Assembly: GCF_946463545.1 (NCBI RefSeq)
Contig: NZ_OX296583.1
Location: forward strand, 905,035 to 969,034
Direction: 5' to 3'
Origin: Methanothermococcus thermolithotrophicus DSM 2095
GTDB taxonomy: Archaea > AGJL01 > Methanococci > Methanococcales > Methanococcaceae
DNA: 64,000 nt
Made by a program: the position numbers and the translations under genes. Positions 6,615 through 58,269 of the stretch are shown here, piece by piece (within the stretch, counting starts at the first letter, position 1; every line of letters starts with the position of its first letter). The notes beneath the pieces are model-generated. The model searched no databases. It was not told the DNA's origin and was given only the letters and a program-made list of their open reading frames with translations.

Positions 6615-6735
6615 CCAAATCTTTTAAAAAAGATTTGGGTTGAACAAAAATCACTTTGTGATTTTTGTAGCTCACCTTCGTTTCACTCAGGTGACTTCAA
6701 AACCTGATACCTACTCAACTTTGTTGAGTAGGTAT
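6615..6735. repeat. Cluster of four palindromes with 2-4 base centres
   Basis: The 305-base gap before the Get3 gene is dominated by hairpins: CCAAATCTTTT-AA-AAAAGATTTGG (6615-6638), CAAAAATCAC-TTT-GTGATTTTTG (6645-6667), TCACCT-11-AGGTGA (6672-6694) and ATACCTACTCAAC-TTT-GTTGAGTAGGTAT (6707-6735, 13 bp arms). The first may act as a terminator for the DUF116 gene. The arms differ in sequence while each stays self-complementary, and two centres are exactly TTT, the pattern shared by elements near 36.4, 39.3, 51.4 and 53.0 kb. Confidence 0.8.
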
Positions 6736-39130: not shown

Positions 39131-39282
39131 TCTTTTTTATTGGGTTATCAGTTTTTGAGCGTCCATTTTGTTTAGTTTTGGATTTTTCCTTATGGCATCC
39201 AAAAGATAATGCAGATATATCTACAAATTTTCAGGTGCTCCACTATTATATGTTTCTTGGATACTCTTGGAAGGGTATCGAA

Positions 39283-39485
39283 GAAAATCCTTCGGATTTT
39301 CTGACCCACAAAACTCTTCGAGTTTTGTCGGGAATCCTGAACTTATAAGTCTCCATCATCATCGCATCACGATTTGATTACTTATAAATAGTATCTTATC
39401 ACCCACTATTTATAAATATTTGCCTGCATTTCCGAGCAATCGAAGCGAATCCAAAGGATTCGCTGTCGAAGCAAATCAAAGATTT
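39283..39485. repeat. Palindrome cluster in the gene-poor 38.7-39.6 kb region
   Basis: GAAAATCC-TTC-GGATTTTC (39283-39301), ACAAAACTC-TTC-GAGTTTTGT (39308-39328), TTATAAATAGT-12-ACTATTTATAA (39382-39415), GCGAATCC-AAA-GGATTCGC (39445-39463) and AAATC-AAA-GATTT (39473-39485) lie between the tnpB remnant and the end of thiDN. A 95-codon frame runs through part of the region on the plus strand but has no convincing ribosome binding site and no recognisable product. The remaining 39.49-39.65 kb is plain spacer. Confidence 0.75.
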
Positions 39486-50393: not shown

Positions 50394-51917
50394 ATGATTG
50401 TAACCGACGTAAAAAAATGTAAACTATGTAAAGATGAAGAAGTAGCTCCCGAATGCATTAAAGTATGTCCCACAAATGCAGTTAAGGTAGTGGCAGATAA
50501 GGCTTTTTCATGTATAACCTGCGGAACCTGTGCAAGGGAATGTCCAACAAAGGCGATAAAAAAGAACGAATACGGCGGATATTACGTAGATAGAAAAAAA
50601 TGTACTGGCTGTGGAATTTGTGCAAATGTATGCCCTATAAGCATAATTGAGATAATAGATGATGAAAAAATTGGGAAAAAGCATCCAATGGGAATCTGCG
50701 TAATGTGCGGTTTATGTGCTGAAGCCTGCCCAAATCATGCGAGAATGTGCCTCAATGTAAGCGAAATGAAGAGTATGAAAAATAAGGTGCTTCTTGACAG
50801 GTATTTAATGATATTTAAGACGCATGGAAATATCAAGGAACATATTCAGGAAGAAAAACCTGCTAAAATAATAAAAGAAAAGGATAAAAGGAAAATAAGG
50901 ACTTCAATAGATATAGATATAGGCGGCAAATGTGTTGAGTGCGGTAGATGCATTTACCTATGTCCAAAAAACACGATATTGGAAAAAGAGGAAGTTGATG
51001 GCTGTACAGGATGTAATATTTGTGAGTTAGTCTGTCCAAATGAAGCTATTGAATATGGGGTTGTAGACGAAGAGAAATGTGTTTTATGTGGAAACTGCAT
51101 AGAAAAATGTCCAAAAGAAGCCCTGGAAATAAAGAACTTCAAGATAGTTAAAACTAAAGAGGATGAAAAGGCCACTCCATTGAAACATTGTATAAACTGC
51201 GGCTTATGTGTTGATAGATGTCCTTCTGAAGCTTTAAGGATTGAAAATAGTAAAATTCTTTACGACCCATCAATATGTAGTTTATGTAATACTTGTGTTA
51301 AAATCTGCCCTCAAGGAGTTAGAGTCAACAAAGGAGATCGGAGCGAAGCGAAGAGTGTAAAATCACAAAGTGATTTTAACTTCGAACCTTCGGTTCGATG
51401 CAACGAAATGCGAAGCATTTCGTCTAATTATGTGGATGGTGGCTGTGTCTTATGCAATATCTGTGTTAAAAACTGCCCTGAAGATGCCATACAGATAAAA
51501 GAAGTTGAAAAGTTCGAAATAATAAAGGATGTTAACTGTATAGGTTGCGGCACCTGTTCAAATGTCTGTCCAAACGATGCTATAACTGTAAAAATTACCA
51601 AATTTTCTCCAAAAGTTTCAAGCGAAGTTATATTTGACGATAACTGCGTAATGTGTGAAAACTGTGCTATACACTGTCCAAGGGACGTTATTCCAAATAC
51701 AACAGGCCATAAAAAAGTTGTAGATAGGGAAAACTCATACATTAGGACTGATATGGATTACTGTATAGAATGCGGTCTCTGTAACAAAATATGTCCTAAT
51801 GAAGCTATAGATAAAGGTAAAATAGATTGGGATAACTGTGAGCTCTGCTCTGCCTGTGTGAATATATGTCCTACGCATGCGGTTAATATTTACAGAACAT
51901 GGGTTGAGAGACCGTAA
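50394..51917 (+). CDS. ehbK: Energy-converting hydrogenase B polyferredoxin EhbK, with in-frame palindromic insertion
   Basis: 507 residues containing about fourteen CxxCxxCxxxCP [4Fe-4S] motifs, from CKLCKDEE...CIKVCP at the start to CELCSACVNICP near the end, arranged as tandem ferredoxin pairs. EhbK carries electrons between the hydrogenase core and soluble ferredoxins. Between the ninth motif (CSLCNTCVKICP) and the tenth (CVLCNICVKNCP) the reading frame passes through a 93-base palindrome cluster that adds about 31 polar residues (DRSEAKSVKSQSDFNF and more). This segment has no ferredoxin character and its DNA matches intergenic repeats, so it looks like an insertion tolerated in a linker. 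Confidence 0.9.
   Translation: MIVTDVKKCKLCKDEEVAPECIKVCPTNAVKVVADKAFSCITCGTCARECPTKAIKKNEYGGYYVDRKKCTGCGICANVCPISIIEIIDDEKIGKKHPMGICVMCGLCAEACPNHARMCLNVSEMKSMKNKVLLDRYLMIFKTHGNIKEHIQEEKPAKIIKEKDKRKIRTSIDIDIGGKCVECGRCIYLCPKNTILEKEEVDGCTGCNICELVCPNEAIEYGVVDEEKCVLCGNCIEKCPKEALEIKNFKIVKTKEDEKATPLKHCINCGLCVDRCPSEALRIENSKILYDPSICSLCNTCVKICPQGVRVNKGDRSEAKSVKSQSDFNFEPSVRCNEMRSISSNYVDGGCVLCNICVKNCPEDAIQIKEVEKFEIIKDVNCIGCGTCSNVCPNDAITVKITKFSPKVSSEVIFDDNCVMCENCAIHCPRDVIPNTTGHKKVVDRENSYIRTDMDYCIECGLCNKICPNEAIDKGKIDWDNCELCSACVNICPTHAVNIYRTWVERP
51335..51427. repeat. Palindromic element inside ehbK
   Basis: Three consecutive palindromes lie within the coding region: AAAATCAC-AAA-GTGATTTT (51359-51377), CGAACC-TTC-GGTTCG (51383-51397) and CGAAATGC-GAA-GCATTTCG (51404-51422). 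The left end, CGGAGCGAAGCGAAGAG, and the right end, TTTCGTCTAAT, recur in a related copy at 53007-53054 after ehbM. The element leaves the reading frame open. Confidence 0.85.
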
Positions 51918-52564: not shown

Positions 52565-53014
52565 ATGTTAAAGGAACTTTCAAGAAAGAAGTGTATTCAC
52601 ATAATGCTGGTTTACACTGGAGGATGCAACGGTTGCGATATTGAGGTTGTAAACTGTGTACTTTCCCCATATTATGATGTAGAACAGTATAATGTATTTT
52701 TAACTTGGAATCCAAGGGAAGCTGATATTTTAGTTGTTACCGGATGCGTTACAAAGGCTGTTTCAGAATCACTTAAGAAAATATACGATGAAATTCCTGA
52801 ACCTAAGGCAGTTGTTTCAGTTGGGGCCTGTGCATTAATGGGTGGGGTTTATAACAACATAGGCGGAGATTTAGGAACTTCGAATTTTATAGATGGTCCT
52901 GTTGATAATATAATTCCCGTAGATATTAAAGTTCCAGGATGTCCACCAAGACCTGAGGATGTAATAGATGGTGTAATAAAAGCCCTACCTAAGATTTTAG
53001 AGGATTCGGAGTGA
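52565..53014 (+). CDS. ehbM: Energy-converting hydrogenase B small subunit EhbM (NuoB-like)
   Basis: 149 residues. [26 protein letters not shown] and [15 protein letters not shown] provide the four cysteines that bind the proximal [4Fe-4S] cluster next to the NiFe site. The large subunit EhbN is not in this operon, which agrees with what I recall from other Methanococcales, where it is unlinked. ATG after AAAGGTGGGCAT. The stop codon lies in the first bases of a palindromic element, so the native 3' end may have been altered. Confidence 0.9.
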
Positions 53015-53054
53015 AGCGAAGAGCAGCGAAAACCGAAGGTTTTCGTCTAATGAT
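53007..53054. repeat. Palindromic element at the ehbM-ehbO junction
   Basis: CGGAGTGAAGCGAAGAG begins at 53007, the ehbM stop TGA is within it (53012-53014), then CGAAAACC-GAA-GGTTTTCG (53027-53045) and TTTCGTCTAATGAT. Both flanks match the copy inside ehbK. The ehbO ribosome binding site AGGAGGT follows immediately. Confidence 0.8.
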
Positions 53055-58017: not shown

Positions 58018-58269
58018 CAACACTTTTAAAGGGTTTAAGAAGAAATATTATATTTTGGAATCCAAACCTTTTTTTAAAAGGTTTGGAGATTAACACCATA
58101 ACAACACTTTTAAAGGGTTTAAGAAGAAATATTATATTTTGGAATCCAAACCTTTTTTTAAAAGGTTTGGAGATTAACACCATAACAACACTTTTAAAGG
58201 GTTTAAGAAGAAATATTATATTTTGGAATCCAAACCTTTTTTTAAAAGGTTTGGAGATTAACACCATAA
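58002..58269. repeat. Three tandem 84 bp repeats starting in the 3' end of aspS
   Basis: The unit begins at GATTAACACCATAACA, which is the end of aspS, and contains ACACTTTTAAAGGG, an AT-rich stretch and the hairpin CCAAACCTTTT-TTT-AAAAGGTTTGG. Full copies start at about 58004, 58088 and 58172 with no differences that I can see, and a fourth partial copy ends at 58269 before unrelated sequence. Each 84-base unit is a multiple of three, which leaves long open frames on both strands (about 108 and 99 codons); I do not regard these as genes. The hairpin may be the aspS terminator. Confidence 0.92.

Follow-up and report, generated by a model that had tools for sequence, protein, structure and literature searches.

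The ehbK locus and its palindromic insertion

The DNA analysed here (the window, 64 kb in length) comprises positions 905035-969034 of a genome that consists of a single contig of 1,706,496 bp. The source organism, labelled G000 in the set of 21 genomes searched, is a Methanococcaceae methanogen with no congener in that set; its family is presumably represented there by M. okinawensis, M. aeolicus, M. vannielii and Methanotorris igneus. Copies of the repeat described below were scored with R1, a covariance model built on eight copies. The relevant features of the window are as follows.

50394-51917, + strand: ehbK-type polyferredoxin ORF, host of the element; 507 aa with many Fer4 motifs; orthologues in 20 of 20 relatives searched
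51339-51428, + strand: palindromic insertion in ehbK, 90 nt or 30 codons (RSEAKSVKSQSDFNFEPSVRCNEMRSISSN), in which two degenerate units of the element are compounded; without counterpart in 20 relatives
51339-51382, + strand: ehbK unit 1, 44 nt; canonical head CGGAGCGAAGCGAAGAG, hairpin TAAAATCAC-AAA-GTGATTTTA and a degenerate tail; R1, 36.0 bits, E 2.7e-7 (search of the window)
51383-51428, + strand: ehbK unit 2, 46 nt; head hairpin CGAACC-TT-CGGTTCG, hairpin ACGAAATGC-GAA-GCATTTCGT and a CTAAT end; R1, 32.9 bits, E 1.6e-6 for 51391-51428 (search of the window)
53007-53051, + strand: single 45-nt unit at the end of a hydrogenase small-subunit ORF (52565-53014); R1, 66 bits, E 4.3e-15
6639-6690, - strand: wider-family copy with the CACC...GGTG type of head, outside ORFs; E 7e-6
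39277-39320, - strand: divergent wider-family copy; E 5e-5

The first-pass annotation had described three palindromes in a row inside ehbK, and three inverted repeats were indeed found there: TAAAATCACAAAGTGATTTTA (51358-51378), CGAACC-TT-CGGTTCG (51383-51398) and ACGAAATGCGAAGCATTTCGT (51403-51423). Perfect stems of at least 9 bp number 19 in the window, versus 2.5 in shuffled sequence. When folded as DNA, the 90-nt stretch reaches -24.7 kcal/mol (z = -6.4), a value matched by none of 200 shuffles; folded as RNA, its z score is -4.7. The architecture of unit 2 is that of another copy, at genome positions 69855-69899.

The insertion is situated at the turn between CSLCNTCVKICP and CVLCNICVKNCP, two CxxCxxCxxxCP motifs, in agreement with its initial placement between two ferredoxin motifs. 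That annotation gave its bounds as 51335-51427, or about 31 residues; the insertion itself was upheld, and comparison with homologues refined the bounds to those listed above. The junction slides by 1-2 nt because AT/T is common to both ends. The inserted residues had also been said to be devoid of Fe-S character. No Fe-S motif is present among them, as stated, but a single Cys is (VRCNEM). The genes neighbouring ehbK are the same in one relative (locus L034 of genome G008).

The copy at 53.0 kb had been noted as intergenic. The copy is real but only in part intergenic: it contributes the final codons of the hydrogenase small-subunit ORF together with its stop (TCG GAG TGA, 53006-53014). Its TGA is the stop of that ORF, and the element therefore now ends the gene. 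The head of this copy is CGGAGTGA where the other canonical heads have CGGAGCGA. Elsewhere in the window, at 58061-58255, a 27-nt palindrome (TCCAAACCTTTTTTTAAAAGGTTTGGA) occurs in three copies with an exact spacing of 84 nt.

Empty sites in the EhbK proteins of relatives

Protein searches and alignments of EhbK across Methanococcales revealed that residues ~316-344 are missing in all 20 relatives. In nearly every genome, residues 1-315 and ~345-506 align, with nothing between them. A MAFFT alignment of 21 EhbK proteins places the junction at VNKGD | ... | YVDGG, versus NKGDYISGG and similar sequences in the relatives. Homologues carrying the same residues in non-palindromic codons were looked for and none was found among the 20 relatives. 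Short extra residues are present at this loop in two of them (G018 and G008). The EhbK of G008 (L034, 2603-4351) is also lengthened by several Asn/Lys-rich low-complexity stretches, another way of extending linkers.

Only one relative has a long insertion at this point, of ~31 residues. This is G019 (L015), which we take to be M. jannaschii, and its insertion is encoded by a different palindromic repeat, with 14-nt arms CAGGACTTTCGCAG / CTGCGAAAGTCCTG. A 13-nt version of the arm, with up to two mismatches allowed, gave 85 matches in G019 versus 21 in G000, and those in G019 are often paired ~76 nt apart. The other Methanocaldococcus relatives of G019 are without an EhbK insertion. Two dispersed palindromes that are unrelated to each other have therefore inserted near the same codons of EhbK in two lineages. 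A tolerant surface turn is the simplest reading of this double hit. The insertion in G019 is very likely one of the MJREs of M. jannaschii, repeats which reportedly average ~100 bp and lie in coding regions in three cases. R1 has 11 matches in G019, and these could correspond to one MJRE group.

A dispersed family of modular hairpin elements

The element unit is ~45 nt long and consists of the head CGGAGCGAAGCGAAGAG followed by CTAC, a hairpin and a TYAAT end. Some 110 copies of this palindromic family are dispersed in the genome. The recurrence of the ehbK flanks, first noticed at 53.0 kb, extends to the whole genome in the case of the head: GGAGYGAAGCGAAGAG has eight exact and five one-mismatch occurrences genome-wide, versus none in a reversed control, and it is found twice in the window (51340 and 53008) where 0.01 occurrences are expected. 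The TTTCGTCTAAT flank alone is weaker evidence, with two exact occurrences in the window and five with up to one mismatch versus 2.2 expected. Most of the GGAGYGAAGCGAAGAG heads lead into a CTRC-like motif, then a hairpin and finally a TYAAT-like end, and the aligned units are 43-47 nt long, most often 45 nt. R1 yielded at least 142 matches in G000 at E values up to 10 and at least ~79 at E<0.01; scoring covered 150 of 950 candidates, and the copy number obtained is therefore a minimum. With a loose tail pattern, 107 matches were obtained genome-wide, compared with seven in the reversed control.

The design of the family is modular, in that variable heads are joined to a common AGCTAC-hairpin-TTCAAT tail, and several of the heads are themselves hairpins (CGGAG..., CACC...GGTG, CGCTTA...TAAGCG and CGAACC...GGTTCG). 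The conserved parts of the unit are a 17-nt head, a covarying 9-bp hairpin and the TYAAT-like end. When 22 distinct tails of the same length were compared, 99% of the cells in the nine stem pairs were paired and 38 changes were two-sided; the covariation score was reached in none of 500 shuffles, and all slid versions scored far lower. The tail copies are related to one another, and the covariation is therefore to be read as maintained pairing and not as a set of independent events.

A search of the element against the covariance models of Rfam gave no match at E values up to 1, and none was found in viral contigs or plasmids. The 21-nt head, searched in other genome contigs, has two matches, both in unrelated MAGs. 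Near some of the elements, hairpin arrays of another class (GACTCACAAAA... / TCGAAGCAAATT...) were observed, with near-identical 54-nt copies, at G000:C1:7773, 423989, 780898, 1049436, 1134956 and 1578175.

Copies within protein-coding genes

ORFs with a minimum of 150 codons contain 17 of the 112 catalogued matches, or 16 elements since ehbK contributes two; all of them are open throughout, although the set was in part ascertained by being open. Both orientations and all three sense frames are represented. The hosts, named from their sequences, are hemC, a hef-type helicase-nuclease, an acylphosphatase-domain protein, cofD, an intein inside a secretion-type ATPase, ehbK, bioF, a metallo-beta-lactamase-fold protein, a SAM methyltransferase, a BchH/CobN-like chelatase subunit, a RamA-like ferredoxin-ASKHA protein, a YgiQ-type radical SAM protein, hel308, tfrB, a HepT-like protein and an ORF at 73.5 kb. 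A copy in a GH57 gene at 227.7 kb is a weaker match. The element in the secretion-type ATPase (G000:C1:785711-788626) is inside the intein itself, and an element is likewise present in the Hel308 intein of G019.

As in EhbK, residues at the element are missing in relatives. In the BioF alignment, exactly 15 residues are missing in five relatives; the corresponding figures are 13-15 for the BchH/CobN-like protein, 15 for YgiQ and ~19-23 for TfrB and CofD. For hemC, match lengths and residue counts give 15 missing residues. When genes broken out of frame by an element were sought, three loci were flagged, each of which proved to be a pair of distinct neighbouring genes.

The consensus of the element is free of stops in sense frames 0, 1 and 2 and in antisense frame 0. 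In another antisense frame, the only obstacle is the terminal TGA; the hemC copy is open in this frame. Since stops are absent from all three of its sense frames and from one or more antisense frames, the element can enter genes in several phases and orientations without truncating them. The spans of the model matches occur in all phases outside genes and are often not multiples of three, inside genes as well; in-frame status thus depends on the exact junctions or on compensating changes, and the variability of the spans means that the element by itself does not determine the phase. As judged from sequence, the repeat has entered at least 15 genes in frame, each of which apparently gains ~15-30 aa and remains unbroken. 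The original proposal of a repeat inserted in frame in a protein gene is supported by the relatives that lack the EhbK residues and by these copies in other genes. No peptides encoded by the element were found among PDB sequences.

Distribution across Methanococcales

R1 matches at E values up to 1e-3 were obtained in 12 of the 21 genomes and in none of five Methanococcus-type genomes. A wider search, nominally at the level of the phylum, covered 36 genomes, all of the same order, and agrees with this pattern. Related copies are thus patchy across Methanococcales. In-frame copies in relatives were found in the Hel308 intein of G019, a glycosyltransferase (G009), a HAD phosphatase (G018) and an ATPase (G020).

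Two of the in-gene copies are shared with G004, presumably M. aeolicus. The RamA-like copy has 89% DNA identity with its counterpart there, with indels that are net whole codons. The hel308 gene with its intein and element (G000:C1:1457000-1459165) is 99.1% identical in DNA over 2.08 kb to that of G004 (L167), an organism of another genus. These identities suggest that host genes carrying the copies were transferred, recently in the case of hel308.

Possible origins of the insertion

The ehbK stretch is best explained by a palindromic element, dispersed and non-autonomous, that inserted as a tandem or compound and belongs to the ~110-copy family described above; the probability of this reading is put at roughly 0.85. 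Elements would land widely, and purifying selection would remove those copies that shift the frame or hit folded cores. The survivors would then be found at surface turns, which in EhbK is the turn between two ferredoxin motifs, where the additional 15-30 residues would be translated and tolerated as a roughly neutral loop. Spread may be due to a trans-acting activity that recognises the hairpin and the end, and copies may travel between species inside genes and IS elements. Translation of the insertion, its approximate neutrality and mobilisation in trans are all inferred.

The loop in EhbK does tolerate variation in length, as the short extra residues in G018 and G008 indicate, and the 30 residues might accordingly be old, lost in the relatives and palindromic by coincidence. 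Absence from all 20 relatives, drawn from four other genera, the match of the insert DNA to a genome-wide repeat and a fold that is extreme in comparison with shuffles make such an ancestral linker barely credible. It was rejected together with pure chance, given the absence in relatives and a fold far beyond that of shuffles. The strong hairpins predicted in the mRNA also raise the question of whether the insert is removed or skipped at the level of RNA or translation, as an archaeal intron or by bypassing of the kind seen in some yeast mitochondria. All 16 in-gene elements are stop-free and in frame, whereas most would be expected out of frame if such inserts were excised; the scan for split genes brought to light none with an element out of frame, and Rfam offers no match. 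Removal or bypassing is therefore very improbable. Only marginally more probable is the recruitment of the peptides for a function, such as the tuning of electron transfer or a protein interaction in the hydrogenase complex. The two independent palindromic insertions at the same EhbK turn in two genera, the Cys added by the insert and the retention of the RamA-like insert in G004 with net whole-codon changes would fit such a role. Against it, the peptide sequence is set by the frame in which the repeat landed, the orthologues work without the insert, and a shared tolerant turn explains the convergence.

A different question is how the units spread. They may derive from, or be mobilised by, single-strand transposition of the IS200/IS605 type, landing 3' of an (A)AT target with TYAAT as the right end. 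This proposal is compatible with the insertion of a dispersed element as set out above, and is regarded as a possibility that is rather unlikely. TYAAT-type ends follow heterogeneous AT/T left flanks, which fits insertion without a long target duplication; no clean duplication is seen, yet YAAT-type ends and AT/T before the head are. TnpB is found in 11 of the 12 element-positive genomes and one of the nine element-negative genomes, so that the presence of the two agrees in 19 of 21 (Fisher p ~4e-4, a statistic that ignores relatedness), and copies are nested in TnpB transposons of several species. On the other hand, Y1_Tnp is present in only four of the 21 genomes and not in this one, a search of G000 for the Y1 (HUH) transposase (PF01797) having given no match. 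The ends of the TnpB transposon in G004 also look different from the element, copies of which appear to be nested passengers there. That the unit might be the right end of TnpB transposons, a narrower idea, was considered and dropped, as in G004 the element appears to be such a passenger and the IS ends look different. The co-occurrence of TnpB and the element remains a lead.

In several species, elements were observed nested within TnpB genes or at their ends (L127, L129, L223, L231 and others), and such elements could be carried between hosts by these genes. More speculatively, miniature hairpins transposed as single strands and open in most frames might be a recurrent source of protein loops throughout the order, with the EhbK turn as a hot spot that two unrelated palindrome families hit independently in two genera.

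Comparison with known systems

Selfish repeats would here be becoming protein in archaea, in ~15 genes of one genome, which looks larger than the M. jannaschii case. The EhbK turn, hit twice independently, offers a natural replicate. Empty sites are available in relatives, among them culturable methanogens, and related copies occur across the order; with the empty sites and the many in-gene copies, the translation of the inserts, their neutrality or use and their mobiliser are directly testable.

In-frame palindromic elements are known in Rickettsia (RPE), where they are 105-146 bp long and were first reported in 19 reading frames; a guanylate kinase carrying one was shown to be translated and active (PMC2229807). 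The first-pass annotation took these as the closest parallel. The parallel is right in kind, but the closest precedent is archaeal: M. jannaschii has palindromic repeats with coding potential (MJRE), some of them fused into protein genes (Suyama, Lathe & Bork 2005, FEBS Lett 579:5281, as summarised in PMC2229807 and PMC2996958). By description, the MJREs resemble the present elements as dispersed palindromic repeats, some in protein genes, of an archaeon of the same order; here, the unit is ~45 nt and 16 in-gene copies occur in one genome. The RPEs (Ogata 2000) and their Wolbachia counterparts, likewise compared by description, are selfish palindromes found in frame in conserved genes as well as between genes. 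The RPEs differ in being bacterial and 105-146 bp long, as opposed to a ~45-nt unit (90 nt as the ehbK compound) that is found in three sense frames and in antisense.

REP/RAYT elements (GTAG/CGTC-tagged; PMC3733652) are similar in being 20-40 bp hairpins that carry conserved tags close to the foot and occur in many copies, whereas here the genome has no Y1/RAYT-type transposase and in-gene copies are frequent. The miniature elements of IS200/IS605 share the terminal hairpin, the AT-rich fixed right end and the lack of an obvious target duplication; they differ in that no matching autonomous IS end was found for the present units, which are nested inside such ISs. A search of the openly licensed literature returned no earlier report of such elements in this organism. 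Two traits of the general kind to which RPE, the Wolbachia elements and MJRE belong, a many-copy dispersed palindrome and in-frame insertions in conserved genes that orthologues lack, are both present here. Taken together, the element family is a new and extensive archaeal case of an already known kind, in which the convergent hit in EhbK is notable.
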